From positions 1 through 26,757 of the IMG/VR virus record IMGVR_UViG_3300025789_000131: a stretch of 26,757 bases of DNA; one strand, written 5' to 3'. This DNA comes from a virus. Positions 3,301 to 25,237 of the stretch are shown here, piece by piece (the stretch's first letter is position 1; each line of letters starts with the position of its first letter). Under the pieces are notes generated by a model. It made no database searches, was not told the origin of the DNA, and saw only the letters and a program-made list of their open reading frames with translations. The position numbers and the translations under genes are program-made.

Positions 3301-3738
3301 ATGCCGTATAAATCAATTGAAATTACAAATGCCAATGCTGTTTATCAACAAGCACCTAAAACTAGTCAGTTCTATGTAGGATTTTCTAGCGTTGATATTT
3401 CAAATACGAAATCTAAACTTTATGATTTAGCTATTATTCAACAAGATATCATTAATACATTTAAAACACGCAAAGGTGAGAGGGTAATGAATCCGACCTT
3501 TGGAACAGTTATTTGGGACCTAATAATGGAACCAATGACTCCGCAAGTTTATGATTTATTGGCAAATGATATTAATACAATATGTAGTAGTGATCCTAGG
3601 GTAACTCCAGTCAAACTTAACTTAACTGAAAAACCAGGCGGTTATATAATTGAAATTACGTTATTATTAGTTGGCACAGATCAGTCTTCTTCTATGAAAT
3701 TAACGTTTGATCAGCAAAATGGGCTAACGGCGCAATAA
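3301..3738 (+). CDS. 25: gp25-like baseplate wedge protein
   Basis: Small baseplate wedge subunit of the GPW/gp25 family, which links the wedge (gp6) to the sheath and is related to TssE of type VI secretion systems. The diagnostic stretch is KGERVMNPTFGTVIWDL at about residues 57-73, followed by EPMTPQVYDLLANDI; the rest alternates strand and helix as expected. At 145 residues it is close to T4 gp25 (132). The family has a lysozyme-like name in older annotation but no catalytic site is seen or expected. The gene lies between the gp5-like hub and gp6, keeping the T4 25-6 order. The ATG has no ribosome site but sits 5 bases after an ATAAATA element. Confidence 0.92.
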   Translation: MPYKSIEITNANAVYQQAPKTSQFYVGFSSVDISNTKSKLYDLAIIQQDIINTFKTRKGERVMNPTFGTVIWDLIMEPMTPQVYDLLANDINTICSSDPRVTPVKLNLTEKPGGYIIEITLLLVGTDQSSSMKLTFDQQNGLTAQ

Positions 3739-3785: not shown

Positions 3786-6700
3786 ATGACTATCCCTGCA
3801 ACAAATTCAAAACTACTAGTAACTGAAAATTGGCAAAAAATATACCAATCTTTCCCTAATGCGGAGTTTCAAAGTTACGATTTTGATACACTAAGACGTA
3901 TTTTAATTTCATACCTTCAAGAAAATTATCCTGAGGACTTTAATGATTTTATTGAGAGTAGTGAATATATTGCGTTAGTTGAATTAATTGCTTATTTAGG
4001 ACAAAATTTAAGTTTTCGTATTGATTTAAATGCACGTGAAAACTTCTTAGAAACAGCACAGCGCAGAGACAGTATATTAAGGTTAGCACAACTAGTTAGT
4101 TATATACCTAAACGTAATGTTCCGGCCAGTGGATTATTAAAAATATCTGCAATTGCTACTAGTGAAAATGTATCAGATATTTCAGGAACAAACTTAGCTA
4201 ATAATACTATTGTTTGGAATGATCCAACTAACTCTAATTGGTATCAACAATTCATAACAATTATGAATAGTGCTATGCCAACTGGTATGACATTCGGCAC
4301 TCCAAATGATCGAGGAACAGTTGGGGGAATTTTAACTGAGCAGTATATTTTAAACAGTTCAAATACAGATTTACCTATATACAGTTTTACACAAAATATT
4401 AATGGATCTAATACAGATTTTGAAATTGTCCCAGCCACATTCGCTGGGCAAAATTATGTTTATGAAGCTACACCAAAACCAGCTGGTCCGATAGAAATAT
4501 TATATCAAAATGATAATCAAGGATCAGGCAGTCCTAGTACTGGTTTCTTTTGTTTGTTCAAACAAGGTTCAATGGCATTGAGTAACTTCTCAATCAGCAA
4601 TCCTGTACCAAATGAAATAGTTGGAATTAATGTTAGTAATATTAATAATTCAGATGTTTGGTTATGGCAATTAGATACTTCAGGAAAAGCCTCAACATTA
4701 TGGACTCAAGTTCCTGCGATCACCGGAAACAATGTCATTTATAATAGTATTAGTCAACGTGATAGAAACATTTATAGTGTAAGCACACGTGATCAAGATC
4801 AAATCGATATTACATTTTCTGATGGTAATTTTGGAAATTTACCTAGTGGAAATTACAGTTTATATTATCGTCAAAGTAATGGGTCAACGTATTCAATATC
4901 TCCAGAGCAAATGTCTGGTATTGTTGTTACTATTCCTTACATTGATAAAATGGGATTGAATCAAACACTTACATTGATATTAACTCTTGAATATACAGTA
5001 AGTAATAGTGCTCCGACTGAATCAAATGCAACTATACAAAAAAATGCTCCGCAAACATATTATACACAGAACCGTATGGTTACTGGAGAAGATTATAATA
5101 TTGCACCATTAACCTATACAACGAATGTTCTTAAGGTTAAAAGTATTAACAGAGTAAGTAGTGGAATCAGCAAGTACTTTGATTTGAATGATGTCAGTGG
5201 AAAATACAGTAGCACAAATATATTTTGTGATGATGGGTCTCTAAGCAAATTAACAACTAGTACGAATTTTACATTTAGTTTTGCAGGACAAAATGATATA
5301 TGGGCGGCTATTAAAACTAAATTAAATCCTTTAATTTTAAATCCTGCGTTATATGCATTTTATTTAGACACTTATAGAACATACGCTCCAATTATTGTTA
5401 ACAGTAGTTTATTGTATAAGTGGAAATTAATTAACTCTGTATCTGGCCAGAGTCGAGGATATTTTACAGGATCAACAAATGGAATAAATTCATTCCCTAT
5501 TCCAGTAGGACCGTTATATTCTTCTATATCATATTCCATGTATTATATTACATCTGGGGCTATGATTAAATTTGCTGCACCTAAAGACATTAATAATCAA
5601 ACCCAATACTTTTTACCTGATGGGACTGTTGTAGGACAGGCTGCGTATAATACATCAGAATTTTATTGGACAACTGTGCAACAGGTTATTGGTACAGGAT
5701 CCAATAATGGATTAGGCGTATTGAGTGATGGAACCGGGCCTATTATTTTTACTAACATTATTCCAGATGGATGTGTTCCGGTAGAGATTGTACCGGCATT
5801 TGTAAACTCATTAAACTATACATTTGAAAGCAACATCGTTAATTTATGTTCACAGCAGGTTACATTTGGTTTAACATTTGATTCTTCATATAGAAATTGG
5901 AAATTTATATTTGGTGGGGATTTAAACATCAATTATGTAAGTCCAAGTGCAATGTTTAACTATTCGGGAGATACATCAGGAACTAACAAAGATGCAAGTT
6001 GGTTAATAACATTTACTTGGCAGCCAGCATCACAAACATACCTAGTCACTGCAAAAATTACACAATATCTATTTCAAAGTGCAAATCAAACAGGCTTTTA
6101 TGTAGATACATCTTCAGTTAATTTTGATTATATAAACAACACGGTTGTTAGAGATAAAATTAATGTATTATCAGTAAATTCGAGCCCCACAACTGGATTT
6201 CCATTATCAACTGATTACTTGTGGCAAATTGATGGAACACTAGTAGAATCAGATGGTTATATTGATCCATCAATGGTATTAATAAGTTATTATAATAATT
6301 TAGATAGCCAACAATTTAGTCAAATCACTAATCCTGATATCTTTAATAATATTGTTGCAAATAATACTACTACTGTTACTATTAATGGATCTAACATGGT
6401 TTTACCCGGACGTAGTGGATTAAAATTTCAATATCAACATAATCCAAGTAATGATTTCCGTATTGACCCATCTAAGAGTAATATCATAGATGTGTATATG
6501 TTAACTGCTGATTATAATTCTGCATTTAGGAATTGGCTAGTAACAGGTATAGGTACTGAACCGTTACCACCAACAAGTTTAAGTTTAGAGAATAATTATT
6601 CTGCTAATTTAGAACCTATTAAAACAATTAGTGATCAAATTATATATCAACCGGCATCTTATAAAATTTTATTTGGTAAATCAGCAGATGAAAATTTACA

Positions 6701-7034
6701 GGCAACGTTTAAAGCAGTTAAAAGTGCATCAAGTACAATGAGTGATAATGCCATTATTTCTCAGATATTGGACGCCATTAATAATTTCTTTAGTTTAGAT
6801 AATTGGGATTTTGGACAAAGTTTTTATTTTAGTGAATTATCAACGTATGTAATGAATTTGTTAACACCTGATATTACTAACTTTTTAATAATTCCAAATA
6901 GTACAGGATTTGGTAATTTGTATGAAATATCTTGTCAAGCCAATGAAATTTTTATCAATGGCGCGACAGCAGAAAACATACAAGTTATAAGTGCAGCCAC
7001 TGCATCACAATTGAACATTAGTTCTGGAAGTTAA
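3786..7034 (+). CDS. 6: gp6-like baseplate wedge protein, enlarged
   Basis: Core wedge protein whose dimers close the inner ring of the baseplate. The first 120 residues match the T4-like gp6 N-terminus (YDFDTLRRILISYLQENYPE, LVELIAYLGQNLSFRIDLNARE, ETAQRRDSILRLAQLVSYIPKR). The motif RMVTGEDYN near residue 430 and the following YFDLNDVSGKYSS stretch are typical of the family's middle region. The C-terminal part has GRSGLKFQYQHNPSNDFRID, YKILFGKSADENLQATF and a final helical/strand region matching gp6 dimerisation segments. It has 1082 residues against about 660 in T4; much of the extra length appears to lie between about residues 500 and 860. A GGAAG ribosome site for the next gene lies at its 3' end, and only two bases separate the two genes. 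Confidence 0.9.
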   Translation: MTIPATNSKLLVTENWQKIYQSFPNAEFQSYDFDTLRRILISYLQENYPEDFNDFIESSEYIALVELIAYLGQNLSFRIDLNARENFLETAQRRDSILRLAQLVSYIPKRNVPASGLLKISAIATSENVSDISGTNLANNTIVWNDPTNSNWYQQFITIMNSAMPTGMTFGTPNDRGTVGGILTEQYILNSSNTDLPIYSFTQNINGSNTDFEIVPATFAGQNYVYEATPKPAGPIEILYQNDNQGSGSPSTGFFCLFKQGSMALSNFSISNPVPNEIVGINVSNINNSDVWLWQLDTSGKASTLWTQVPAITGNNVIYNSISQRDRNIYSVSTRDQDQIDITFSDGNFGNLPSGNYSLYYRQSNGSTYSISPEQMSGIVVTIPYIDKMGLNQTLTLILTLEYTVSNSAPTESNATIQKNAPQTYYTQNRMVTGEDYNIAPLTYTTNVLKVKSINRVSSGISKYFDLNDVSGKYSSTNIFCDDGSLSKLTTSTNFTFSFAGQNDIWAAIKTKLNPLILNPALYAFYLDTYRTYAPIIVNSSLLYKWKLINSVSGQSRGYFTGSTNGINSFPIPVGPLYSSISYSMYYITSGAMIKFAAPKDINNQTQYFLPDGTVVGQAAYNTSEFYWTTVQQVIGTGSNNGLGVLSDGTGPIIFTNIIPDGCVPVEIVPAFVNSLNYTFESNIVNLCSQQVTFGLTFDSSYRNWKFIFGGDLNINYVSPSAMFNYSGDTSGTNKDASWLITFTWQPASQTYLVTAKITQYLFQSANQTGFYVDTSSVNFDYINNTVVRDKINVLSVNSSPTTGFPLSTDYLWQIDGTLVESDGYIDPSMVLISYYNNLDSQQFSQITNPDIFNNIVANNTTTVTINGSNMVLPGRSGLKFQYQHNPSNDFRIDPSKSNIIDVYMLTADYNSAFRNWLVTGIGTEPLPPTSLSLENNYSANLEPIKTISDQIIYQPASYKILFGKSADENLQATFKAVKSASSTMSDNAIISQILDAINNFFSLDNWDFGQSFYFSELSTYVMNLLTPDITNFLIIPNSTGFGNLYEISCQANEIFINGATAENIQVISAATASQLNISSGS

Positions 7035-7036
7035 TA

Positions 7037-10000
7037 ATGACAACATCAACAGTTCAGTCAGTTAGTTTATTACCGATATATTTTCAAACTAATAAAAATT
7101 CTAAATTTTTATCAAGTACAATTGATCAATTAATACAGCCAGCACAATTAGAAAGATTAAACTCATACATAGGTTCTACATCAACTCCAACATATCAATC
7201 TGGGGACGTATACCTTACAGAATCTTCAGCATTAAGACAAGCATATCAGTTAGATCCTGCGCTAGTTACTTATGATCAAAATAGTAATATTCAATCAGTA
7301 GTATCTATAGATGATTTAGTAAATGAAATATCAATAGATGGCGGAATTACTGACAATTTTGATAGATTGTTTAGGGATCAAATACATTCTTATTATCCTC
7401 AAATTAATTGGGACAAGTTAATAAATTATCAAAATTATTATTGGTTAGCAGCTGGTCCTATGCTCGTAGAAATTGATCAAAATCATTTGGATGTAGCAAA
7501 CACGATTGTAGGACAAACATCAGCACAGGTAACAGTAAATGGCACTGCTTTAACATTATTAAATGGTATGCTAGTTACCTTTATTGGTAACGGTGTTGAA
7601 CCACAATACAAAAATAAAGAATTCTTTGTTGAAGGAACTGGGACATCAATCACATTAGTACCATACGATGATTTGATCACTCCTGAAATTATAGCCAGCA
7701 ACAATAATCCAGATTTATTTGATTCTCAAAATTTTGACAATTATGTATTTGATAATAATCAAAGATTGCCAATTACTCCAGAATATATTACAATTAACAG
7801 AGCCAGTATAGATAAAAACCCATGGTCTAGATATAATCGATGGTTTAGTAAAGATGTAATAACTGCAAGTAATTTAATTAATAATCAACCATTATCATTT
7901 AATCCATCTCTTCAAGGCAAACGTCCAATTATTGAATTTAATGCTGATATACAACTTTACAATTTTGGTTCAGTTGGTGTTAGCCCAGTTGATTTAATTG
8001 AAACAAACTCAACTGATGCTTTAAACAATATTGAAGGATATATATTTCCTGGAACAACTTCTATATCTAGTTTGACTATAGATGGGGTTAATTTGGAATA
8101 TGGTCAGCGTGTTATATTTTCTGCTGATATAAATCCATTAGTAAAAAATAACATTTATAAAATAGATATTGTACAAATAGGAAATAGTTATAAATTAGTT
8201 TTAATACCAGATACTGCTACAATTATAGGAAATTCTGTTACAATTACAAAAGGTAATGTTTACAGTGGAACATCCTGGCATTTTAATGGATCAACATGGG
8301 TCTATTCACAACAGCACACGATGATAAATGAAGGTCCGCTATTTGAATTATACGATAATAACGGGATTTCTTATAGTGATACTCGATATTATCTATCTAA
8401 TTTTAATGGGAATAAAATATTTGGTTATAGTATAAATTCTAATAATCCAGTAGATCCAGTATTGGGAATGTCATTAGATTATAGAAATGTCAACGCTATT
8501 GGTAGTTTCTTATTTAAAAACTATTTTACTGATAACGCTATTGCTTTATCAGTTAATAATATCAATAGTGTTGTTGTTCCTGATAGTCTTACTAATATTA
8601 AAGTTGGGTCGACTTTGGTTAATATTTGGAGACCTACAACGCCAAACACTATTGACATTAATGGATCAACTGGATATTATAATGTTCCATTAGGATTAAC
8701 TAATAATCCATTAAATGGCCCAATCAGTGCATTTACGCTATCAGATTTAGATCAGCACGTACAAACTAACACCCGATTAATAACAAATGCTACACCGTTG
8801 TCATTTGCTATGATGTTTCTTGGTAAGAAAGAACATAATGTAGTTGATGCAATTAATAAGTCATCGGCATTATACAATTATTTTAAATTATCATTAATTA
8901 ATCAAGCATCTTTAATTTCTAATGTTATAGATCCTGCAAGTGCATTAGATGAAATTTTAATAACTATTAATTCAAGCAAAACAGATCAAAGTCCATATTA
9001 TTTGTCAGATATGGCTCCTTATGGTGTAGATAAAAAAGTATTAACATATACTGTATCTAATACTGCAACTAGTTACTATTCATTAAGTAATGAGTTTTCA
9101 TTAACTACGGCTACATTTAGAAGTGTTATAATATATCTAAATAACAATCAATTAACATATGGAGTTGATTATACTTTTGATCCAGTTGATGCATATGTTA
9201 TTATATCAGCTACTTTGGCAGTAGGTGATGTTATTACTATTAATGATTATAATAATACTCGTGGAAGTTTTATCCCGCCAACTCCTACTAAATTAGGATT
9301 ATATCCTGCGTATGCTCCGAAAATTTATTTAGATGACACTTATGCAAATGCACCTGTTAATGTAATTCAAGGACATGATGGAAGTATAATGGTTGCATTC
9401 AATGATTATCGAGATGCAATAATACTTGAATATGAGTTAAGAGTTTATAACAACATTAAAGCTCAATATCAGCCAAAGTTATTTGATATAAACATTTCTA
9501 ATCCAGGAGCATTTAGAGATTTTGCTGAATTAAGTGATTATAGCTATCAAGAGATAACTGATATATTAGAACAAGATTTTATTAAGTGGGCTGGATCTTA
9601 TGGGGTTGATTATACCACTAACAATACATATGATAGCACTAACCCATTTACTTGGAATTATAAAAACTCTTTTAACACAGAATTAGGCTTGCCCATTAGT
9701 GGAAATTGGCGCTCTATTTTTAAATATTTTTATGATACTGATAGACCTCATACTCATCCTTGGGAAATGTTAGGATTTACTAACCAACCAGATTGGTGGG
9801 AGACTTTATATGGTATTACCCCATATACTGCTGGTAATTACATAATGTGGGATGATATAGAGGCGGGTAATATTGCTCAAGGTGATAGAGCTGGCATCAA
9901 TCTACAGTATGCACGTCCAGGATTAAAGAATTTTTTACCAGTTGATTATACTGGAATTTTATTAGACCCGGTTAAGATTGGATTAGTTTCAGCTCCTCAG

Positions 10001-13000
10001 ATTGCTGATCAAAAGAACAATTGGGTAGTTGGTGATCAAGGACCTACTGAGACTGCTTGGAGACGCAGTAGTTTTTGGCCATTTACTGTTCAAAGATTAT
10101 TGGCATTAACTAAACCGTCATCATATGCATCGTTAATGTATGATCCAATTAACATGAGTGTTGATGTTGCTGGACAATGGACTTATGGAAGTAGTAAAAA
10201 GTTTTTACAATTACCTAATATGCCAATTCATGGAGAAAACGGAGTCCCTACAAGTGGATACTCAGTGTTTGTAAGTGAAGTCGGACAGCAACGCACACAA
10301 AATTACATTACAGAATTAAGGCAAGATTTACAATACGTTAACTTTAATTTATTTTATAAAGTTGGCGGGTTTGTAAATAAAAATACATTACAAATTATAG
10401 TTGATGCATATAGCCCAACTACTAATGATCCTGGGGCATTGTTGCCAAATGAAAGTTATTCATTAATTTTAAAAACTAGTAACCCGATCAGAAGTATTGG
10501 TATTTCTGGAATAATAGTACAGCGTTCTGATAGTGGGTTTATTGTCAAAGGGTATGATCAAGAAAATCCATATTTTAATTGCTATCCGGCAGTTAGAAAT
10601 TCTGCATCTCCAAAAATAACTATTGGTGGAGTTAGTTCCTCATATGTTACATGGACTCCGGCAGGAACTACTGGTGCAACTGGTTTGTCTGCTTTAGATA
10701 CGATTTCAGCTAAATCCTCCCCATCGACTGTATTTTATCAAGCAGGACAAATTGTACAATATGGTTCTAATTTTTATAGAGTTACCGTATCGCATCAAAC
10801 TGAAGCAACTTTTAATTCAAATTTATACCAAATTTTATCTGATTTACCTACGGTTGGCGGAGCTACTGTACAGATAGCAACTAAATTTAATAAAACTGCT
10901 GTTCAAATACCATATGGTACTACATTTACTTCTATACAGCAGGTGTATGATTTAATAGTTGGATATGGTCATTGGTTAGTTGATCAAGGTTTTTCATTCG
11001 ACCAATTTAACCAAGATTTAGGCACAACTGTAGATTGGAATTTAAGTGCTAGAGAATTCTTGTATTGGAGTACACAAAATTGGAATTCAAATAGTGTAAT
11101 TACATTAAGTCCGTTCGCAGATCAATTGACTTATCAATATAAGGATTCAGTTGTAGATAATATTTTTAATAGTTTTTACAATTACAGTATTACAAAAGCA
11201 GATGGAACTCCTTTTGATCAAAAGAGTTTATTTGTAACTCGTCAAAATGGAATCTTTAATCTCAATGTAATTAACACTGATGAAGGAATTTATTTTGCTA
11301 GATTAAATTCAATACAAAAAGAACATGGTATTGTATTTGATAATACTAGTATATTTGGTGATGTTATCTATGATATAGAAACTGGTGAAAGACAAGAAAG
11401 AATGAAATTAGTTGGCTTTAGAACCGCTAATTGGAACGGTGATTTCTTTAGTCCAGGATTTGTATATGACGAAGCAACGATCGAAATATGGAAACCATAT
11501 ACTAATTATTTGGCTAGCAGTATTGTAAAATATAATGGAATATATTATAGCGCAATTAAAAACATTACTGGTGGTGAATTTTTTGTATTCACACAATGGA
11601 GTCAACTAGGTAAGAAACCAGTAGCTGGATTATTACCTAATTTTGATTATAAGATTAGCCAGTTTAATGATTTTTATAGTTTAGATACTGACAATTTTGA
11701 TGCCGGGCAACAACAAGCGGCACAAAATTTAACCGGCTATGTTCCTAGACCATATTTAAATAATATTTTTACAGATCCAGTATCACAATATAAATTTTAT
11801 CAAGGTTATATTAGAGAAAAAGGTACATTAAATGCCATAACAAAATTGGCAAAAGCCAGCTTACATACATTGAACAGCGAAGTTGAATTCAATGAAGAAT
11901 GGGCATTTAGAGTTGGACAATATGGATCTTTTACAACTTATAAAGAATTTGAAGTTCCATTAATAGAAGGTACTTTTTTAGAAAATCCACAAATTATTAG
12001 TTTTACTGAGTCGATACCAGAAAATTCAGATAATTTAATTTACTATGCTACCCCTGACAAATTAACAATTAGTCCATTCCCTGGTACAATACCATCAATT
12101 GCAACTACTAGTTCTAGTATTCCTGCATTTAAATTAAATCATTCTGGATATGCACAACTTAATGATGTAAGTGCAACTGCTTATAATTTAAACAGTATAT
12201 TAGATATTGCTAATAATGATCAAATAATTGACAATACTACAATTTGGTTGGGATATAAACCAAATGGTGATTGGGACATTTATCGATATGAGCGTGATCC
12301 TGTTGAAATTATTAGTGCTTCATCAGACACTGTATTAAATCAAATTACACTCAATACAAATTATGCACATAATTTAACTGCAACTCAATTAATATCAATA
12401 GTAAATTTTAATAGTGATATTGATGGGATATACCTTGTACAATCAACGCCAACATTAACATCTTTTGTAATATCAAATACTACTGGCATTTTAAACACCA
12501 CCCCTACAAAAAATAACGGATTATTGTTTGTTTTTAACAGCACAAGATTTTTGACATTTGATAATATTCCATCTGATGGGAAATTATTCAAATATCCTCT
12601 TGGTACAAATCTTTGGGTAGATAGCGGAAATGGCACTGACAATAATGGTTGGGCAGTTTACAAAAAAATTATAAATCATAATCATCATTTATTTGCAAGT
12701 TATGATACTGTGCCTACATTTGAGGGATTGGGCTATAGTATTAGTCGTCCTAAGGGCAGTGGTATTATGGTCCTTGGAGCACCCACATATGCAAACACTA
12801 TTCTATCATCACCTATCTCAGGTAACGTAATTGTTTATGAAACAACCTATGGAACATTAAGTCCATTTTTACATTATCAAATGTCTGGAGCAGGAACTGA
12901 ATTTGGTCATGCAGTAGTGTATGATGATATTCCTTTTAGTACTTCGACTTATGGATTAATTTTTGTAGGAGCTCCTGGGTCATATGCAAACAGTGGCTCA

Positions 13001-16000
13001 GTAAGAATTAGTAGTATTAATCAAATATACGAAGAACATACACAACTAAATTTATACAATCCGCAAATTGTTTCTAGCCATAGATTTGGGTCTAGTATAT
13101 ATGTACAGCGCAATGCTTCGACTAAAAAGGTATTAGTTGGTGCTCCTGGAACAACCGGGGATTCTTCAACACCTGGTGCAGTTTATTCTTATATAATTTC
13201 AAGCACTGCTACTGTAAAAGTAAACTCTGTTTCAGAATTAAGTTTGTCATATAGTCTTACTAATGGATCTGAATGGGGGCATACAATAGTAGGTTCAGAA
13301 AATGCTGAATATATTGCAATTAGTGCTCCGGGTACTAGTACTGGCATAGTTGCTATTTTTGTTAATGGCGTTCAAACTCAAATTTTATCAACATCAACAT
13401 CTGAACGTTTTGGTGATTCAATGGCAATGAGTCCTGATGGTTCTTATCTAGCAATTGGTGCTCCAAAGACAAACAATCAAGATAACAATAGTTTAGGCGA
13501 AGTAAGAGTATATACGTTAACTAATGGTACATACGTTTTAGATCAAATACTTACTAATCCGGTTGATAATCCTGCTTTGACTTTTGGATCTGCTTTAGAT
13601 TTTAATGAATCAGCAACTAAATTGGCAATTAGTGCAATAGGCACTGATACATCAGTGTACACTACATTTGATAACAATGTAACTACTTTTGACGTAGCAA
13701 CAACGTTTTACAATGAAGTAATTGAAAATTCTGGAAGTGCTTATCTATATTCTAGACGTGATAAACGATTTGTTTATTCTGAAGAATTGACAACTAGTAC
13801 AATATATGATACTATAGATTCAACTGTAAGCATTACTGGAACTAATTACGGAACATCGATCTCAGTTGATGATGATTTTATATTAATTGGTGCTCCGTCT
13901 ATTAGTGCTAGCAGTAGCAGTGGAGTTCATCAATTTTTAACAGTTGATCCAACAATTCTTGGATGGCAACAACTTAGAGTACAGGATGATTTAGTCTTAA
14001 TAGATTCAGTTCAAAAAATAAGTCTAGTTGATACAGTAAATGAGGATGTAATCAATTATTATGATTTTGTGGATCCAATAAAAGGCAAAATTTTAGGTAT
14101 TGCAGAACAAGAATTAACATATAAATCGGCAAATGATCCTGCTGTATATAGCATTGGTACTGATACAGTTAGTGTCAATGCCAATGTTAATTGGTTAGAA
14201 AATCATACAGGACAACTATGGTGGGATGTTAGTACTGCAAGATTTATTTGGTATGAACAAGGTAATTTAGAATATCGTAGAAACAACTGGGGTAAACTAT
14301 TCCCAGGGTCAACTATTGATGTCTATGAATGGGTTGAATCCTCGTTGTTGCCTAGCGATTGGGCAATTAAGGCTGATACATCTGTAGGACTAGCACAGGG
14401 CATTAGTGGACAACCTAAATATCCGGATAATAGCGTACTTTCAGTAAAACAGGTTTATGATCCAGTAAGTGGCGGGTTTAGTAATTTGTATTATTATTGG
14501 GTAAAGAATAAAACTACCGTCCCTTCAGTAAAAAATAGAAGAATAAGTGCATATTCTGTAGCAAACTATATTTCAAATCCTACAGCTTCTGGAATTCAAT
14601 ATTCTGCAATGTTGTCATCAAGTTCAATAATGTTGGCAAATTTAGGAAGTGAATTAGTATCAAATCAAATTAGTTTGAATCTTGCTATTGATAATACCAA
14701 TAATACTGTGCCTAAACATACAGAATGGGCATTGATGCAAGAGGGCGTTGAAACAAGCTATGTACCAAAATTACTTGAAAAGAAATTGATTGATAGTTTA
14801 GTTGGTCGAGATGTTTTAGGAACACCAGTCCCTGATCCTAGATTATCATCTAGATCAAAATTCGGTGTTAGTATTCGACCACAACAAACATTGTTTAGTA
14901 ATAGATATGAAGCATTAAGAAATATTGTTGAATTTGCTAATAGTGTTTTGATTGGCATACAGGTTACTGGAAATTACAATTTTGCTAATTTAGATGCCAA
15001 AGAATCAGCACCGACTCAATATCCAATAGTTGAAGACCCTAGCGAGTTGACTTATGAGTTTATTCAAAATGCCACTACTGCAACAGTATTATCTGATTCT
15101 TTAGGAAATGGTAATTGGGCAGTATATTCATATCAAAATAATGAATGGGTTAGAGTTAGAACTCCTAGTTACAATGTTTCACAATATTGGAGTTATACAG
15201 ATTGGATCAGCTCTTCATATAATAAAAATATTGCATTAACTGCGATAGTTGATTCTACTTACGAATTAAATCAATTAAATTTATCAGTTGGACAATATGT
15301 TAAAGTTAAAAATCGTGGCGATGGCAATTTTGTAATATTAGAAAAAAATGCTAGTAACAATCAAGGAACATATGGCAATAATTTTAATTTAGTATATGTA
15401 CAAAATGGAACTATTCAATTTTTAGATACTGTGTGGAACAAGGCCTACGGTTGGGATGAGTATTATTCTTATAATCAAACATTATTTGATCAAGCTCCAG
15501 ACTTAGAATTAAACTATATATTATCAGCATTAAAAGATGATTTGTTTATTAATGATTTAAGAGTAAATTGGAATTTATTATTCTTTAAAGCAATCAAATA
15601 TGCGTTTACTGAACAAAAATCAATAGATTGGGCATTTAAGACGTCCTTTATAAATGTAACAAACTTTGCAGGAACATTAACACAGCCCCCTGTTTATAAA
15701 TTACAAGATAGTTCATATTATGAATCTTATATCAGTGAAGTAAAGCCATACCATACTCAAATTAGAAAATTTACAACTAAGTTTGAAAATACTGAAACAA
15801 CCAATATATTAATATCAGATTTTGACTTCCCAGCATATTATGATTTTAATAAGAACTCTTTTGTACCTGCGTCAGTATCTGCAACAAACATTACATCAAA
15901 TCCAGTTAGAACAGTTTCTGGTTCAATCTTATTTGATCGAGTAGGAGTCCATAATCGTATTGGTGCATTAGTTGTTTCTGATAATTTTATTACAAACAAT

Positions 16001-19000
16001 GTATCTATTAGATATCAATTGAGTTGGTTAGCACAAGCAGATAGATCTACGATATCTGTATATTTTAATAATAGTTTAGTATTACCAACTGATTATACTT
16101 TAGAATATTATACTAGAGAATATAATGGATACCATAAAAAATATAATGATTTAGTATTTGTTAATGCACCTAATACAGGCACTATTACAATTAACTATCA
16201 TAAGAGTGTGGATTTAATGACAGCATCAGAACGCATACACAATTTCTATGAACCAGATGTTGGAATGCCAGGAACACAATTAGAACAACTAATGGTTGGA
16301 GCAGCTGATCCTAGAACACAATTTGGTGGGCAGTATGAAGGTAAAGGGTTTACTAATTTATATGGAGGATTTACTCCAGATACAGAAGTTAGCTCTGGCG
16401 GGTTATTAAACGCTGATGGTATAGATCCTGCTGAAAGAATAATAGATGGCGGATATAATTTTATATCTACACATTCGGGAGTAGCTCCGGAGGAATTGGT
16501 CCCTGGACTTGTTGCGGATACACTTGGAATCCAAGTGTATACTAAGCCAATGGATCAAACACCGACAATGATTACTGGCACTATTCCTGTTAATATTGCT
16601 GATTACAATCCTTATGACAATTATTATTATAACTTGTCAATATTACCGCCTACAATTGACAGCATATTAGTTTCATATAACGGAAATAATCTTGAATATG
16701 TTCCTGAAGAATTTGTGGGTGGTAATATATATTGGTCATTTGCATCAAAAAATCAGTTTGGAATTGATTGGGGAAATTCTAAGTTAGTTATTCCTGCTCA
16801 ATTAGAATCTGGAGTGTTGGGATATTCGATTATTAATGTTGGTGACTCTAATACAAATGGGGTTGGGGTTATTGAGAGCAGATCAAAATCAGTTTATAAT
16901 GCTACTTCAACCGAAATTACATGTACCGTTGATTATTCAGAAGTTAATAGTGCGTATGTTACAGTAAACGGGGTTCCAATAACTAATAATCCAACAGATT
17001 ATAACACTCTTTATGCATTGGGTTATTATACATTCTATAGTGTTGCTATATCGAGTAAAAATGGAAATGCGGCATCAGTGTATGTATATAATATGCCACT
17101 AGGCAGTAATGCAGTAGAAGTTTGGTTATTCAATTCAAATCAAAGTAATTTTAATAAACTTACAGAAGAACATTTTATAATAGGTAATATCCCTACATTT
17201 GCTCCTGATGGAAATGGATATAATCAATCAGTGGCGTTATTATACCCGCCAGAAAATATTGGCCCACCAAGTAGCCAGGCAATTGTTGAATATACCCCTC
17301 TTGGCGGCACTACTATTAGATTACTGCCACCGAGTGTTGTTTATTATCCCGTAACAACTACGGCAACTACTACCTATCCAGCAATAGATATTAATGGACC
17401 GTTCACGGCATTTACTGCAACGCAAGGTTTGCTTATTACTACTATTATTGATAACATCAATGTATACCATAATGGAACGCAGTTAACTTTAGGACAGGAC
17501 TTTATTGTTAATACTACAAATACTACCGTTACTGTTCTTAATACTACATCTATTTCGGTTGGCGATACAATTGCAGTGGAATCATTTGTTAATAATAATG
17601 TCAGTAACTCGTTACCTAATAATCACTCTTATTCATATGATTATATGATAACAAATCAAGGAAACTTATTGTTATCGCCTAACTACAGTAATTCAACTAA
17701 TTTTAGTCTTAAAGTAATTACATTTAGTAATCAAGATAGATTAAACATAGAAACGAAAACATTTATAGGAAACCCTAATAGAATATTCACACTTGATCGA
17801 CCAGTGCTAAATGAAAATTATATTTGGGTAATGTATAATGATCCTAATGTAGGATTGAGATCATTAATTAATGGAGTAGATTTCCAAATATTAAGTGATC
17901 ATATTACTGTATTAATCAGCGATACCTATGTAATAACCCCTAGCGATACTATTTTTATAATGAGTTTTGCTAATCCAACTATACCTGATAATATTTTAGG
18001 TTATAGAATAGCCAATGATTTCTTAGGTAATAAAACATTTACTAGAATTGCTAATCAAAATTCAACTTACTTAACTAAACCTCTATCATTTACTGATACT
18101 GAAATTTATGTTGCTGATTCAACAATATTGAGTCCAGCAGATCCATTAACTAACTCTCCAGGCGCTATTTTAATTAATGGAGAAAGAATTGAATTCTTTG
18201 TAAATGAGAACAATACATTAAGTCAACTTCGACGAGCTACTCGTGGTACAGGCCCGGCATACTATTCTGAAGAGGGTACTGTAGTAATTGATCAAGGAAT
18301 TGATCAAATCATAAATATTTCTCCAGGAAATGTGTACTCTGATCAAATACTATTACAAAACACATATACTTCTGCTAGTTTAAACAACACATATGTGATT
18401 AGTACATCGACTATGCGATATATTAATACAATTACATCTTCAACAATTAGATGTGACGGTATCGTATTAAACACAGTTCCAGCTGCATTACCAGTAGATC
18501 CGTATACAGGGTATTATGGACCTAATAATATTCGTTTATATACAATAAACACCGCAAGTTTTAGAGCTGTTGATCAATTGATTGTTAAGTATGGTGGAAG
18601 ATATTTAATAAAAGACGTATATTATTCACAGGATACAACGGTCTCTTATGATGGAATATCAGTATCTCAAATTGTTGGATCAGTAGCTACTGCTGCAGAT
18701 TTGGTAAATGTTCCTGTTTATTTAGGAAATGCTTATGTCTGTGAAGATACAAATTATGTATGGGTATGTGTTCCAACACATTTTAATGAATCTTCTATTC
18801 CAAATTTTGTTGATTCTGGACTGAGAAGAAGAATGCCAGATTTTACAATTGATACAAGCACTCAAGTATTAACATTAAATACATCAAATATAACACTTCA
18901 AGTAGGTGCATTATTGACTGTTTATAAACAACAAGCTGGCCCAAGTTGGAATGATCTTGATCCAGCAAATACAATAACAAATACTTTATCGTTATTAAAT

Positions 19001-19144
19001 AGCACAGGTACTATTGCTACATTCTTAAAAGAAGGTCCTGCTGTATTACCAACTGATTATTTCTATGGTGGTAATTTAGATCTGTTAGATAATTCCGGTG
19101 CAGTACTTTTAGATCAAAACGGAGCCCCATTAAGAGGATTTTAA
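7037..19144 (+). CDS. Giant (4035-residue) baseplate/tail structural protein with embedded beta-propeller
   Basis: One uninterrupted frame of 12.1 kb, starting two bases after gp6 with a GGAAG ribosome site at 7026-7030. It occupies the place of T4 gene 7 onward, but no gp7, gp8 or gp10 similarity can be recognised by eye. The N-terminal third ([13 protein letters not shown] near residue 135, [15 protein letters not shown] near 745, [20 protein letters not shown] near 904, [20 protein letters not shown] near 1014) resembles large virion proteins of marine T4-like phages. Residues 1896-2305 form seven FG-GAP-like repeats. [17 protein letters not shown] is near 2897 and a [14 protein letters not shown] segment near 3061. 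The C-terminal 700 residues contain repeated beta modules of the form V.VYxNxxxL..G.DY...GD.I and a module ending LRRATRGTG near 3734. No membrane segment or enzyme motif is seen. Likely an outer wedge or host-contact component, inferred from position and composition. Confidence 0.88.
12715..13956 (+). repeat. Seven FG-GAP-type repeats: predicted seven-bladed beta-propeller domain
   Basis: Within the giant protein, residues about 1896-2305 hold seven repeats of the pattern (F/W/Y)G.(S/A).........(I/V).(I/V)(G/S)AP followed by a G(S/A/E)V.(V/I)(Y/F) strand. They begin near residues 1897 (GLGYSIS...VLGAP), 1956 (FGHAVV...VGAP), 2016 (RFGSSI...VGAP), 2079 (EWGHTI...ISAP), 2124 (RFGDSM...IGAP), 2182 (TFGSAL...ISAI) and 2270 (NYGTSI...IGAP). 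Spacing is 45-88 residues, mostly about 60, as for propeller blades. The pattern fits the FG-GAP_2 type rather than calcium-binding integrin repeats, since the DxDxDG loop is not visible. Repeat six has lost the final Pro of GAP, and the longest gap follows it. Confidence 0.8.
18082..18260 (+). repeat. Module shared with the 1068-residue appendage protein
   Basis: This stretch of the giant protein reads [12 protein letters not shown], then [14 protein letters not shown] and [12 protein letters not shown]. The protein encoded at 22031-25237 has a parallel series at 24101-24255: TATDTAMTVTDVTFF, SGIVYVDNELISY and GQLLNLTRASS. The shared pattern is a TDT strand, a G.I.(I/V)(D/N)(G/N)E.I.(F/Y) strand pair and an L..L(T/R)RA turn. 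It probably forms a small beta-rich linker in fibre-like proteins. Confidence 0.6.
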
Positions 19145-19146
19145 AA

Positions 19147-19506
19147 ATGTCATATATTAATCAATTACCAGTTACTACTAATACTGCATCTACGTATTTT
19201 TTAGTAACAGATAACGGTGTAACTAAGCTGTTTAATTATTCAGCTTTAGCAAGCGAATTAGCAACTACAGGGCCGACTGGGCCGACTGGTACTACTGGTC
19301 CAACTGGGCCGACTGGCGCTACAGGGCCGACTGGCGCTACTGGACCAACTGGACCATCACCTGCGTTTACATCAGTCCCCCCACCTGCCTCCTCAACTAG
19401 TGTAGGTACAGTGGGACAAGTGGCCTACGATGACACCTATGTTTACATTTGTGTAGCCGCAAACACTTGGAAACGGGTTTATGCCCCAGCATCCAATACA
19501 TTTTAA
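19147..19506 (+). CDS. Short collagen-like fibre/attachment protein
   Basis: A 119-residue protein in three parts. Residues 1-41 form an N-terminal region ([20 protein letters not shown]) resembling attachment ends of phage fibre proteins. Residues 42-71 are ten uninterrupted Gly-X-Y triplets (GPT, GTT, GAT, GPS), expected to fold as a collagen triple helix. Residues 72-119 form a C-terminal piece with [20 protein letters not shown] and TWKRV, a recurrent C-terminal module in phage tail proteins that may help trimerise the collagen stretch. The ATG lies two bases after the giant gene's stop, with AGAGG at 19133-19137 inside that gene as ribosome site, so translation is probably coupled. The product is likely a trimeric virion decoration or fibre joint; its exact place in the virion is unknown. 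Confidence 0.82.
19270..19359 (+). repeat. Collagen-like Gly-X-Y tract
   Basis: Ten consecutive nine-base units encode GPT/GAT/GTT/GPS triplets. The tract is noticeably GC-richer than its surroundings because of Gly (ggg, ggc, ggt, gga) and Pro (ccg, cca) codons. Synonymous codon variation between units shows the tract is maintained as protein sequence rather than being a fresh slippage expansion. Confidence 0.92.
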
Positions 19507-20169: not shown

Positions 20170-22005
20170 ATGGCCTATACAATCCTAAATAATGATGGCA
20201 CACTACTTGTTAGAGTAGCTGATGATTCTATTGATCAATCAACTAGTGTCACTTTTATTGGAAGGGATTACCCAGGCTATGGACAATACTATAATCAAAA
20301 TCTAGTAACTTTACTTACTAATTCAGCAAGCGTTAATTATAATCCGCCAGGAAATCCTCAACAGGGTCAACTTTGGTATGACACTACTTTTAATAGATTA
20401 AAAGTTTTTGATGGTGCATCATTTGTAACAGCTGGAGGAGCAGTCGTATCAACAGCTCAGCCTTCTGGGTTAATTGCTGGCGACTTTTGGTATGATTCTG
20501 TCAACAAAACATTAAACTTTTTTAATGGTGCAGGATATGATTCAATATACTCATATCCAATTAATTCAGTTACTGGATGGGTAATACCTAATCCAGTAGT
20601 ACTTGATAATAATACTCCGGGTGTTCCTCAACAAGTTACTTTAATTGAAAATTATAATAATGTTATAGGCTTGTTAAGTGAATCCACGTTTGTTGCTAGT
20701 ACTAATGATAGTTCTAGTCCTTCTAGATTTGCTAATGCAGGATCTGGTGCTTATCAAGTTTATCAAGGATTGAACATACTTGGAAATATTTCTTCTACTG
20801 CATCAATTTACAGTAATTTTTTAAGTGTTACTTATGATGTGACTGTTGGTAGAAATTTAACAATTAATGGTACGTTTAATGCACAAAATATATTAGCAAC
20901 CAATGCAACTATTAATCAAAGATTTGTATCATTAGGATACACCGATCTTGTAAATTTAACAGTTGTTGGGCCTTCAAATCTACAATCAGTAACTGCTACA
21001 AGTTTGACAGTTACTGGACCATCAACTTTACAAAGTGTTACAGCTACATCACTATGGGTAGCTGGTGTTTCTACTATAACTGGTATATTATATGCTGGTA
21101 GTGATGTTTATGTCACCGGAAATTTATATGTTGATGGAACACAAACTGTTATCAACAAAACAAACGTTACCAGTGGTGATGCTACAATTACATTATCAAC
21201 TGGTAGCAATACTGCATTAGCATCTGCAAATGCAGGTTTACAAATTGGATCTACCTCAAGCCCATATATTAGTTGGTTATATGATGGTGTTGCAAATTGG
21301 AAAACAACTGGTGGAATTTCTGTAACTGGCCAAAGTACACTAAATGCGTTAACTGCGACACTTACAACTGTTACACAATTAACAGTGTCAGGTAATGAAA
21401 CAATTGGTGGTACTTTGGGAGTAACTGGACAAAGCACATTAGGTGCATTGACTGCTACTCTAACAACTGTTACACAATTAACAGTATCTGGAAAAACTAC
21501 ATTGGGTGCATTGACTGCTACTCTAACAACTGTTACACAATTAACAGTATCAGGCAATGAAACAATTGGTGGTACTTTGGGAGTAACTGGGCAAAGTACA
21601 CTAGGTGCATTGACTGCGACACTTACAACAGTTACTCAATTGACAGTATCTGGACAAACTTTAATAACCAGTACTACATTGTCTACGTCAACTAATACTG
21701 GGGCATTAGTTATTACTGGTGGTGTTGGAATTGGGGGTGCGTTATATGTGGGAAGCACTACTACACATTATGGTCATATATTACCAGCACAAACCAATAC
21801 ATACAATTTAGGTAGTCCGACCCAACAATGGGGTGCATTATACGTTAACACCCAAACAATATATATGGGCGGAATAGCCGTAACCGTTATTAATACAGGT
21901 TCAACTGCAACGTTAACTGTAGGCGGATCACAGGTTATAACAACTGCAACTGTGGCAAATTATACAGCTGCGAGAAGTTTGGCATACGCCATAGCTTTTG
22001 GATAA
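20170..22005 (+). CDS. Tail fibre protein with internal beta repeats (fibre 1)
   Basis: A 611-residue fibre protein. Residues 1-85 are an N-terminal domain (TILNNDGTLLVRVADDSIDQ, TFIGRDYPGYG, QGQLWYD) that is clearly paralogous to the start of the protein at 25253. A second GDFWYD unit follows near residue 103. The shaft (about 270-500) is built of V(T/S)G.STL..LTATLTTVTQLTVSG repeats. Between them is a module with GNLYVDGTQTVINKTNV, then SPYISWLYDG and NWKTTGGISV, common in fibres of marine T4-like phages. The C-terminal end has HILPAQTNTYNLGSPTQQWG, the usual beta unit near fibre tips, followed by about 60 further residues with no obvious receptor-binding fold. GGAG at 20158-20161 inside the previous gene is the ribosome site. 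Presumed trimeric and involved in host recognition. Confidence 0.88.
   Translation: MAYTILNNDGTLLVRVADDSIDQSTSVTFIGRDYPGYGQYYNQNLVTLLTNSASVNYNPPGNPQQGQLWYDTTFNRLKVFDGASFVTAGGAVVSTAQPSGLIAGDFWYDSVNKTLNFFNGAGYDSIYSYPINSVTGWVIPNPVVLDNNTPGVPQQVTLIENYNNVIGLLSESTFVASTNDSSSPSRFANAGSGAYQVYQGLNILGNISSTASIYSNFLSVTYDVTVGRNLTINGTFNAQNILATNATINQRFVSLGYTDLVNLTVVGPSNLQSVTATSLTVTGPSTLQSVTATSLWVAGVSTITGILYAGSDVYVTGNLYVDGTQTVINKTNVTSGDATITLSTGSNTALASANAGLQIGSTSSPYISWLYDGVANWKTTGGISVTGQSTLNALTATLTTVTQLTVSGNETIGGTLGVTGQSTLGALTATLTTVTQLTVSGKTTLGALTATLTTVTQLTVSGNETIGGTLGVTGQSTLGALTATLTTVTQLTVSGQTLITSTTLSTSTNTGALVITGGVGIGGALYVGSTTTHYGHILPAQTNTYNLGSPTQQWGALYVNTQTIYMGGIAVTVINTGSTATLTVGGSQVITTATVANYTAARSLAYAIAFG
21340..21654 (+). 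repeat. Tandem repeats in the shaft of fibre 1
   Basis: Four copies of LTATLTTVTQLTVSG start at bases 21349, 21448, 21511 and 21610, at intervals of 99, 63 and 99 bases. Copies one and two are thus repeated as copies three and four at an offset of exactly 162 bases (54 codons). Copies two and three share a 47-base perfect match (21442-21488 and 21505-21551). The spacer GNETIGGTLGVTGQS follows copies one and three; copy two is followed by the short GKTT spacer. Confidence 0.92.
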
Positions 22006-22030: not shown

Positions 22031-25000
22031 ATGGCAAAACAGCATCTAAGAACATACGCTTTTACTCCCGGAGCAGCCGGTGCGGGTACTATTGAAATTC
22101 CAGGTAAATGGGATTTAAATCAAATTACATTGATTACAAATGTGACAAAAAATGCGATTATTTACAATTTTGCCGATCCAACATATAACAATACTACAGC
22201 AGTTTTTAGTAGATCCAATAGCGCGAATTTCCCACAAATTACACAAACTGCTGATGGAACTACAATAATTACCTTAGGGTATTCTACAATTGGTATGTCT
22301 AGTACTGATCAATTGCAAATTTTTGTTGAAAGATTAGAAACAATTACTCGTCCATGGCCAATGGGTACTGATGCATTTGAACGTATGCGTGTAGCAAGCC
22401 CAAGTAGTATGATTGACTCAGACTTTGAATATGGTATGCAACCGACCAAGTGGCAAACTATTGAGATGGTTAGATCAACCCCCAGTATCTATGAAATTCC
22501 TGGCACAGATTTAATTCTTAGTGCAATAACTACTGATGCGTCAAATCTTGGGCCAGTAACTGTTGAAAGTTTAATTACAGTTACTGCTAAAAATCCACAT
22601 TTATTAACTACAGGTACTGCTATCACAGTTCAAAATTTAGATAATACTGTTAATGGGTACGCTAGGGCAGTTGGTTCATTTGTTGTTAATGCGGTATTAA
22701 ACCCATATCAATTCAACTATTACGCAAAAGCACAAGTTGGAACTTCAGTTGGTCAATCTTTAATAACTGGTGGTTCTGTAGTTAGACAAGCAGGGTTTTA
22801 TACAAATTCTGGACAAACACCTACTTTTGCTACTACTGGGTCAAGCTCAACATCAACTGGAACAGTTACTTTAACTTTCCCAACTAATCATGGGTTTGTT
22901 CCTGGTGATGGTCTTATTGTTATTGTTAGCAGTGACAACGGAACTAATAATCATACATTGTGTCAAGGCCCATTTGTTATTACTAGTGTAACAAGTGTAA
23001 CAAGTTTAACATATAACGCTAGGAATACTGGTACAATTACTGGTATTGTTACTGGAACAATTTATACTAGACCAGATGCATTTTTCCAACATAGACCATT
23101 AGACGGCGGAGTTATGTTGGGTGCTGGCGGACCTAATTACGGATCTCAAGCAGTACGTATGAGTAAAAAGTATATTCGTTATCAGTCTGGTAAGGCAGTT
23201 AATTATAATACAGGTGCTCAATTTGCTCCTAGTTATAATCTTCAAAATGTTACAGCAACTAACACAATAGTTGGGTCAACAGTTTATGTAACAACAGATG
23301 ATATTGATCATGGATTACAAGCTGGTGCAACTATCATGTTAAATGGTATTACTGGTGCAACTGGTTTTTCAGGTACATATACAGTTGCTAGTATTATCAG
23401 TGAGCGGCAATTTACTTTTACTGCAACACAAGTATTGAGCACAACTACACCACAATTAAGCGATCCGTCTACAATGAACCATGTTAATTGGGTTGGGGCA
23501 ACTATTCGAGCCGGTACATTTGATGATCAAAATGGTATATATTGGCAATATGATGGACAAACTATGGGGGTGGGGCGTCGTTCAAGTACATTCCAAGTAG
23601 CAGGAACAGTTAATGCTACTCCTGGATCAAATTTGATTACTGGCGTAAACACACGATTTGATCAACAATTAGTTGCCGGTGATAGAGTAGTATTAAAAGG
23701 AATGAGTCATTGCATTACAGCAGTTACAAGTTCAACTTATATCTATGTTAACCCTCCATATAGAGGTAGTACTTCTACTTCTGGAGCTAAAATGACTAGA
23801 ACAATTGAAACTGTAGTTCCTCAGGCTCAATGGAATATGGACCGTTGTGATGGTAGCAATAGCCCATTCAATCCTAGTGGATATAATATACTACCATATA
23901 AAATGCAAATGGTTGGATTACAGTGGACTTGGTACGGTGCTGGATTTATTGATTGGATGTTACGTGGCCCAGATGGAAACTACATAACAGTTCATAGAAT
24001 GAAAAACAGTAACATTTATTATGAAGCATACCAACGTTCAGGTAATATGCCAGTACGTTATGAAGTTCAAAACGAAGGTGCACACAGTCCTCTTGCATAT
24101 GCTATGACAGCGACTGATACAGCTATGACTGTTACTGATGTGACATTTTTCCCTAGTTCTGGAATAGTGTATGTTGATAATGAATTGATTAGTTACAACG
24201 GAAAGAGCACCAGTACTGGTGTTGGGCAATTATTGAATCTAACAAGAGCAAGTAGTTTGAGTTATTTCTATGCAGGTGCTAATCGTACTTTCTATGCAGG
24301 AACTGCGACATCTCATTCAAATAATACCGGCGTTATTTCGGTAGGAGTTACTGCTACTCCGACATTAAGTCATTGGGGTTCCGCGTTCTTAACAGATGGC
24401 GGATTTAATGATGATGTGGGATACATCTTCAATTATAATGCATTAAATGTTAATATATCTACTGTTAAACAAACTGCATTTGCTATTCGTCTTGCACCAA
24501 GTGTAAGTAACGCAGTTACTGGCGATTTGGGTGTTAGGGACTTGGTTAATCGTGCTCAGATGAAATTACAAGCTCTAGAAATTACTGCTGGTGGTGGATC
24601 TTCATTAAACAGCGCATTAGTTATTGAAGGTGTTATTAATCCAAGTAATTACCCAACTACTGTGACTAATATTGCTTGGTATAATTTACAAGGTACTATT
24701 CAAGCTGGTAATTTATTAGGTACAGGTCAACCTAGCTTTGCACAAGTTGCGCCTGCTGGTGCTATTGGATACAATAATACAGCTACCTATACAACTACTG
24801 CTGGTGGAACAATAAGTTCTGGATCTTTAGTAATATCAGTAGCCAGCACCGCTAGTATACAAATTGGTGATGCAGTATCTATTATTGGTGCTGGAGGTAA
24901 CAGTTTAGTGTCTGGAAATACTATTGTTACACAAACAAGTGGTACATTCATTATTCTAAATGCCCCAACAATTGGTACTATTAATAATGGTGCTACTCTT

Positions 25001-25237
25001 AACTTTTATAGAAATACTTGGGCACAGCCTGGTGAAACTATATTCTCATTCATATCAAGTCCTGCTAATAAAGACTCAATTGATTTGACATTGTTAAAAG
25101 AGTTAACGAATACCCCATTAGGCGGCAGAGGTTGTTATCCAAACGGTCCAGATACATTGTTTATTAATGTTTATTTGACTCAAGGAACGCCGGTATTGGC
25201 TAATTTAGTATTACGTTGGGCTGAACCACAAGCATAA
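22031..25237 (+). CDS. Large modular virion appendage/baseplate protein, 1068 residues
   Basis: The N-terminus (HLRTYAFTPGAAGAGTIEIP, then ERLETITRPWPMGTDAFERM and MIDSDFEYGMQPTKWQ near residues 130-145) resembles conserved large structural proteins of marine T4-like phages; the (F)ERMRV motif also occurs in other phage appendage proteins. Three similar beta modules follow at about residues 177-235, 277-337 and 411-470, each with a (P)H(L/G)(L/F)..G..I strand pair. Residues about 520-580 form a GTVNATPGSNLITGVNTRF module. About 595-690 is a Trp/Tyr-rich core (WNMDRCDGSNSPFNPSGYN, MVGLQWTWYGAGFIDWML). About 690-740 is the TDT/ELISY/LTRA module shared with the giant protein. The end is a conserved-looking beta domain. 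An AGGAAAG site (22018-22024) six bases before the ATG is the strongest Shine-Dalgarno in the window, suggesting high expression. Exact T4 counterpart not identified. Confidence 0.87.
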   Translation: MAKQHLRTYAFTPGAAGAGTIEIPGKWDLNQITLITNVTKNAIIYNFADPTYNNTTAVFSRSNSANFPQITQTADGTTIITLGYSTIGMSSTDQLQIFVERLETITRPWPMGTDAFERMRVASPSSMIDSDFEYGMQPTKWQTIEMVRSTPSIYEIPGTDLILSAITTDASNLGPVTVESLITVTAKNPHLLTTGTAITVQNLDNTVNGYARAVGSFVVNAVLNPYQFNYYAKAQVGTSVGQSLITGGSVVRQAGFYTNSGQTPTFATTGSSSTSTGTVTLTFPTNHGFVPGDGLIVIVSSDNGTNNHTLCQGPFVITSVTSVTSLTYNARNTGTITGIVTGTIYTRPDAFFQHRPLDGGVMLGAGGPNYGSQAVRMSKKYIRYQSGKAVNYNTGAQFAPSYNLQNVTATNTIVGSTVYVTTDDIDHGLQAGATIMLNGITGATGFSGTYTVASIISERQFTFTATQVLSTTTPQLSDPSTMNHVNWVGATIRAGTFDDQNGIYWQYDGQTMGVGRRSSTFQVAGTVNATPGSNLITGVNTRFDQQLVAGDRVVLKGMSHCITAVTSSTYIYVNPPYRGSTSTSGAKMTRTIETVVPQAQWNMDRCDGSNSPFNPSGYNILPYKMQMVGLQWTWYGAGFIDWMLRGPDGNYITVHRMKNSNIYYEAYQRSGNMPVRYEVQNEGAHSPLAYAMTATDTAMTVTDVTFFPSSGIVYVDNELISYNGKSTSTGVGQLLNLTRASSLSYFYAGANRTFYAGTATSHSNNTGVISVGVTATPTLSHWGSAFLTDGGFNDDVGYIFNYNALNVNISTVKQTAFAIRLAPSVSNAVTGDLGVRDLVNRAQMKLQALEITAGGGSSLNSALVIEGVINPSNYPTTVTNIAWYNLQGTIQAGNLLGTGQPSFAQVAPAGAIGYNNTATYTTTAGGTISSGSLVISVASTASIQIGDAVSIIGAGGNSLVSGNTIVTQTSGTFIILNAPTIGTINNGATLNFYRNTWAQPGETIFSFISSPANKDSIDLTLLKELTNTPLGGRGCYPNGPDTLFINVYLTQGTPVLANLVLRWAEPQA
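24101..24255 (+). repeat. Module shared with the giant protein
   Basis: Encodes TATDTAMTVTDVTFF, SGIVYVDNELISY and GQLLNLTRASS, parallel in order and spacing to 18082-18260 in the giant gene. Likeness is at protein level; the DNA has diverged. Confidence 0.6.

Follow-up and report, generated by a model that had tools for sequence, protein, structure and literature searches.

The virus record IMGVR_UViG_3300025789_000131 of IMG/VR (positions 1–26,757, 26,757 nucleotides, termed the window) encodes on its plus strand a giant virion protein, probably of the baseplate wedge, which carries in its middle an integrin-type seven-bladed FG-GAP β-propeller domain (12671–13954, residues ~1879–2306 of the protein, as delimited in an AlphaFold2 model). 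The modelled propeller is closed and complete, and it is inserted into the hairpin turn of a β domain that propeller-less relatives retain unbroken.

Results

Seven blades are detectable in the sequence

The FG motifs of the giant protein are located at residues 1898, 1956, 2017, 2080, 2125, 2183 and 2271, giving successive distances of 58, 61, 63, 45, 58 and 88 residues. With the window and its five closest relatives left out of the blade profile, exactly seven blades were recovered in the 4035 residues, confined to residues 1891–2300, with scores of 12.7–51.9 bits and independent E-values (i-E) from 6e-6 to 3e-18, whereas the next best place in the protein reached 0.12 and the top score among 200 shuffled copies was 8.5 bits. 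All on the plus strand, blade 1 covers 12707–12847 (residues 1891–1937, LG...GAP, i-E 6.1e-6), blade 2 12884–13033 (1950–1999, FG...GAP, 4.5e-10), blade 3 13067–13213 (2011–2059, FG...GAP, 6.2e-11) and blade 4 13235–13396 (2067–2120, WG...SAP, 6.2e-12), followed by blade 5 at 13382–13561 (2116–2175, FG...GAP, 3.3e-18), which is also the strongest FG-GAP_2 match, blade 6 at 13580–13816 (2182–2260, FG...SAI, 2.9e-8) and blade 7 at 13829–13936 (2265–2300, YG...GAP, 7e-8). The second motif is GAP or SAP in six repeats and SAI in blade 6. The Pfam family PF14312 (FG-GAP_2) matched an excised piece of 700 residues with 28.4 bits against a cut-off of 23, and the whole protein with 22.1 bits, slightly below that cut-off; 24 of 25 aligned relatives matched the family at E ≤ 0.1, the best at 7e-14.

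A first-pass annotation of this DNA had placed seven FG...GAP repeats at 12715–13956 of a 4035-residue protein, one of them having lost its GAP motif and being followed by a long gap that might be an exposed loop. The length of the open reading frame (ORF) and the leave-out profile bear out protein and repeat number, the Pfam search agrees on the family, and the interval lies near that of the modelled domain. The repeat lacking GAP is blade 6, and because its GAP position reads SAL, TAL, SAI or SSx in the 25 aligned relatives, the departure is family-wide and not a local decay. The long gap corresponds to the strand 2–3 loop of blade 6 (13643–13735, plus strand, 31 residues, 2203–2233), located between DSSP strands 495–502 and 534–541 in model numbering and poorly ordered in the model, with a predicted local distance difference test score (pLDDT) under 50 at model positions 507–526, most of the loop; the same loop has 30–60 residues in the 25 aligned relatives. 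A TFD-TTFD loop motif considered as a universal signature was given up, as even a loose pattern occurred in only 71 of the 126 propeller-bearing proteins described below, and we keep it for the aligned relatives only.

The predicted fold is a closed propeller of the integrin type

Using an alignment of 25 relatives as input, AlphaFold2 returned a seven-bladed propeller of four-stranded blades with a predicted template modelling score (pTM) of 0.79 and pLDDT values of mostly 85–97 for the blades. The strand order of the model consists of one leading strand (181–187), six four-stranded blades and a last blade of three strands, as expected when the first strand closes the propeller. The leading strand (12677–12697, plus strand, residues 1881–1887) would thus act as an amino-terminal velcro strand completing blade 7, a pairing that we infer from this order.

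Structural comparison by VIA-align gave integrin α-M as best match (Z 38.6, root-mean-square deviation 2.9, 355 residues; model 179–614, corresponding to residues 1879–2314), and the heads of integrins α-M, α-X, α-4, α-V and α-IIb all aligned with Z 34.8–38.6 over about 350–365 residues at 18–20% identity, the integrin chains aligning from their residue 1. Foldseek against the PDB likewise returned integrins (E 4e-11), and all 50 solved-structure matches among those listed were integrins. The family profile matched integrin α-4 by sequence alone (E 2.1e-15), followed by α-M, X, 6, L and E. The closed propeller that the first-pass annotation had expected from the repeats is therefore also what structure prediction yields.

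The window propeller and the integrin α chains share seven four-stranded blades, the FG and GAP motifs and closure by the first strand. Unlike integrin α, the window propeller lacks GAP in blade 6 and has neither a thigh domain nor a β subunit; integrin α chains are type-I receptors of the membrane that comprise thigh and calf domains, whereas the propeller occupies a central position in a structural protein of a phage, and the sequence downstream of it runs on into the conserved wedge scaffold. A search for the calcium-loop motif DxDxDG over residues 1861–2340 was empty, and because of this absence we regard the domain as integrin-like in fold, not as an integrin.

The propeller is inserted into a hairpin turn

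The propeller is flanked by two short strands, GWAVYKK (12647–12667, residues 1871–1877, DSSP strand 173–177) and GWQQLRVQ (13961–13984, residues 2309–2316, DSSP strand 610–615), both on the plus strand, which in the model form residues 1873–1877 and 2310–2315 of a hairpin with the propeller in between. In propeller-less relatives the pattern W[AT]VY....W..[YI]R.Q..[VI]D is unbroken; the first window strand is homologous to its W[AT]VY part and the second to W..[YI]R.Q. Where the window reads NNGWAVYKK followed by about 430 residues, the propeller-less relatives L138 and L103 read EGAWTVYRYLSGNWLPYRQQEYKI and INGWTVYQYLNHAWMPIRTQTYDV, respectively, and the isolates SCTP-2 (NRWAVYYFNSGKWNLDYKEQDV) and PA5oct (NDWAVAVVSGSTITNIRSRQNLV) have a plain hairpin at this site. 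In RaK2, CBB and Vibrio 2.275.O the divergence is too great for the W-VY strand to be recognized by eye. The model of a propeller-less relative contains strands 182–187 and 190–196 connected by a two-residue turn, its pLDDT dropping along the hairpin from roughly 88 to 66, and in a profile–profile comparison of the propeller and propeller-less groups the alignment covers the second strand and the scaffold after it. The propeller is hence a domain inserted into the hairpin turn of a β domain.

Presence of the propeller changes once on the family tree

To describe the distribution we used scans of viral contigs together with seven phage isolates, chosen by similarity to a few queries, so that all totals apply to the matches listed; the three flank scans each supplied at least 599 candidates. 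Distinct giant proteins with both anchors present numbered at least 160; in the 160 counted, 126 contained the propeller, 22 had a short slot and 12 carried other inserts, with slot lengths spanning 134 to 1664 residues. The propeller call required 250 profile positions, which excludes short slots matching only the domain preceding the propeller (a looser count gives 135 of 160). All seven isolate proteins are propeller-less in this slot. The giant proteins of RaK2, CBB, PA5oct, SCTP-2 and Vibrio 2.275.O have the same scaffold on both sides at roughly 25–35% identity and no propeller, and a search of these five genomes for FG-GAP_2 gave no match anywhere. By eye the SCTP-2 insert resembles a LamG jelly roll, but Pfam gave nothing and we do not claim this identity.

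An unrooted tree was calculated from the flank sequences alone, with 110 rows and 555 columns. It requires a single switch between presence and absence of the propeller, and the branch concerned has a support of 100 in the Shimodaira–Hasegawa-like approximate likelihood ratio test, whereas shuffled labels needed 29.3 changes on average and none of 500 shuffles was as low as observed. Within the sampled family the propeller was thus gained or lost only once, the unrooted tree giving no direction. The comparison of homologues proposed by the first-pass annotation accordingly finds the propeller present or absent as a unit; neither the insertion site in the hairpin nor the one-time change within the family was foreseen there. 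Propeller-bearing contigs measure up to 328 kb (L232), another long contig of the clade being L095 with 229 kb, indicating that the lineage consists at least partly of jumbo phages. Two giant-protein homologues were observed in contigs of metagenome-assembled genomes binned as Endomicrobia and Gammaproteobacteria (L110, CALJEJ010000038.1; L111, NZGL01000017.1); these are probably phage contigs in bacterial bins and possibly hint at hosts.

The propeller evolves faster than its flanks and can host further modules

Across the 25 aligned relatives the mean identity was 32% for the propeller vs 52% and 63% for the two flanks, and propeller identity was below that of the flanks in 299 of 300 pairs. 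The propeller therefore evolves faster than its surroundings. Some relatives contain modules resembling carbohydrate-binding modules (CBM) of the CBM5/12 type in strand 2–3 loops, behind the GAP motif and ahead of the third strand; for L034 the assignment to PF02839 reaches 32.8 bits, over the Pfam cut-off. We observed such modules inside blades of L034, L041, L129, L137, L139, L153, L162, L176 and L233, amounting to domains nested three-deep, the pattern search having recovered some copies only. In integrins, the ligand face is formed by the strand 2–3 and 4–1 loops. The broader statement that inserts occur on this face only was dropped and limited to the CBM-like modules, as L064 and relatives of the L084/L065 type have inserts in the strand 3–4 loops on the opposite face.

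The giant gene lies in a probable baseplate wedge cluster

The giant ORF (7037–19144, plus strand, 4035 residues) matched phrog_10938, annotated as virion structural protein, in a profile search with E 0 and 1092.6 bits in four stretches along the scaffold. Homologues are present in 57 jumbo-phage records, and the scaffold on either side of the propeller is common to the phrog_10938 giant proteins of PA5oct, RaK2, CBB, Atu_ph07, Phosso and SCTP-2. Upstream, likewise on the plus strand, the window encodes a baseplate hub or tail lysozyme-like protein (902–3289; phrog_13211, E 1.7e-46; phrog_181 endolysin, E 1.4e-24), a gp25-like baseplate wedge protein (3301–3738; PF04965, E 2.9e-9, over cut-off) and a gp6-like baseplate wedge subunit (3786–7034; phrog_10646, E 1.8e-276), resulting in the gene order hub/lysozyme, gp25-like, gp6-like, giant gene. 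The endolysin-like carboxy-terminal region of the hub protein corresponds to the phrog_181 match at residues 575–728. According to its record, the PA5oct homologue of the giant protein was detected in virions by electrospray ionization tandem mass spectrometry (ESI-MS/MS).

From this gene order and the virion detection of a homologue, the giant protein is probably located in the baseplate of a probable jumbo myophage. The baseplate assignment of the first-pass annotation hence stands on gene order and homology; profiles of the flanks against solved structures in the PDB gave zero matches. A link between the scaffold and a baseplate protein of solved structure, T4 gp7 for instance, was dropped for this reason.

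Before the propeller lies a β domain (12296–12571, plus strand, residues ~1754–1845) with weak likeness to the E1 FCCH or endosialidase β-barrel domain: PF12195 matched it in the relative L084 weakly, below cut-off (E 6.3e-5), and the model of a propeller-less relative gave a weak fold match to E1 enzymes (E 2.5e-5, template modelling score about 0.2). A similar β domain seems to recur in a structural protein of 1068 residues encoded at 22031–25237. Directly after the giant gene follows a collagen-like protein of 119 residues with GPT/GPTG repeats (19147–19506), and a probable fibre gene for 611 residues contains 162-bp tandem repeats (21345–21660).

Propellers and FG-GAP proteins in other phages

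Seven-bladed propellers are known from phage tails, in the T7 nozzle protein gp12 and the crAss001 muzzle protein gp44 (PMC6702177, PMC10172136). Both resemble the giant protein in being tail proteins with a propeller whose blades contain, or are separated by, inserted domains. In this nozzle family a platform or ring-joining domain stands beside the propeller. They are, however, hexamers closing the ejection channel of short-tailed phages, whereas the giant gene lies in a myophage gp5–gp25–gp6 wedge cluster, and neither occurred in the fold matches of the propeller among those listed.

A tblastn search of two propellers against GenBank phages gave no match. We nevertheless discarded the claim of absence from GenBank phages, because profile searches find FG-GAP proteins in Atu_ph07 and Phosso and the structural matches of the propeller include FG-GAP proteins of uncultured Caudovirales, alongside others of giant viruses. 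In Atu_ph07, gp320 (NC_042013.1, 243018–244199; L125) is an FG-GAP protein of 393 residues annotated as hemagglutinin that adjoins a tail sheath gene. Phosso (PV764938.1, 48338–68978; L124) encodes two neighboring ORFs, annotated as hypothetical and about 3182 and 3702 residues long, that hold most of 42 FG-GAP_2 matches, which suggests strings of several propellers per protein, and small FG-GAP ORFs lie at 92–94.5 kb of the same genome. Through their giant proteins, both of these jumbo phages are relatives of the window phage, with the difference that their FG-GAP repeats form separate genes and their giant-protein slot holds another insert; the slots of Atu_ph07, Phosso and L053 (L012, L015, L053) contain GY..P.V.V.GG.G.GA repeats in place of the propeller. 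The absence of the propeller thus holds only for the giant-protein slot in the isolates examined. The first-pass annotation, which described FG-GAP propellers as best known from integrin α chains and secreted bacterial adhesins, overstated their rarity in virions in view of T7 gp12, crAss001 gp44 and the FG-GAP proteins of Atu_ph07, Phosso and uncultured Caudovirales. The literature searched, with most subscription papers outside its scope, contained no description of a baseplate protein of a phage with an FG-GAP propeller.

Discussion

We favor, with a probability of roughly 0.55, that the propeller serves as an exposed head for adhesion or docking; its outward exposure, its binding and its place in the baseplate are all inferred. 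Ligand binding and fibre orientation, the roles suggested in the first-pass annotation, are likewise putative. As the first and last strands of the propeller would pair, both ends would emerge side by side and could fit a two-residue turn while leaving the host domain undisturbed, so that two short linkers should hold the disc clear of the wedge. Such a rigid disc would present a fast-changing surface through its strand 2–3 and 4–1 loops, possibly to a host surface polysaccharide or a neighboring fibre, and some relatives would add carbohydrate-binding modules to it. The faster evolution of the propeller together with the CBM-like inserts favors a head of this kind. Several observations weigh against it. 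The window's own propeller is without a CBM, L064 and the L084/L065 type have inserts on the opposite face, the calcium-loop motif is missing, the sequence reveals no ligand contact, and the flanks match no solved structure that would place them in the baseplate. Furthermore, six or seven blades are detectable in 116 of the 126 propeller-bearing members, which fits a structural part as well, and a single change on the tree is unlike phage adhesion modules, which are often exchanged between lineages.

This constancy of the unit favors a structural dock or strut, a rigid spacer packing on wedge proteins or anchoring tail fibres without a host ligand of its own, which we regard as a serious contender though short of even odds. 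Besides the one tree change, every sampled member of a diverse clade has kept the propeller with nearly constant blade number, and the T7 gp12 propeller provides inter-subunit contacts and a gate while that of crAss001 gp44 gates the muzzle (PMC6702177, PMC10172136). A strut would, however, hardly be expected to change so much faster than its flanks or, in some relatives, to acquire CBM inserts; placement within a hairpin turn implies that it projects from a domain which is otherwise complete, and many relatives manage without the propeller. The slot lengths of 134 to 1664 residues and the other inserts in 12 propeller-less relatives might instead point to a hot spot at which entire modules for adhesion, be it propeller, GY-repeat or other, are freely swapped to change host range, yet the single change on the flank tree indicates that the propeller is not swapped in and out, and repeated gains or losses of other inserts occur only on the propeller-less side, rendering this improbable. 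Least probable of all is an enzymatic propeller, for instance a glycan hydrolase or lyase degrading capsule or biofilm: a propeller endosialidase exists in the K1F phage tail (mentioned in PMC10607447) and the domain before the propeller weakly resembles the endosialidase β-barrel, but the solved-structure matches listed are without exception integrins, which are non-enzymes, and a Pfam search gave no enzyme family for this region of the window.

Returning to the exposed head, a bolder version of it is that one ancient propeller insertion gave rise to a large lineage of jumbo phages, uncultured to date, with the disc as main adhesion head of the baseplate and CBMs added later on the face that binds ligand in integrins; this we put forward as speculation, and would rather bet against it.

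Both virion propellers and phage FG-GAP proteins had been known before. The giant protein clearly exemplifies an adhesion fold of integrin-like type that forms part of the tail machinery of a phage, and as the empty site can be identified, how a probable binding head is gained or lost is open to study as one domain insertion. A broad group of jumbo phages without cultured members is recognizable by this one stable architectural trait, and as a defined, independently folding domain the propeller offers a practical handle on the attachment of phages for which there are no isolates.

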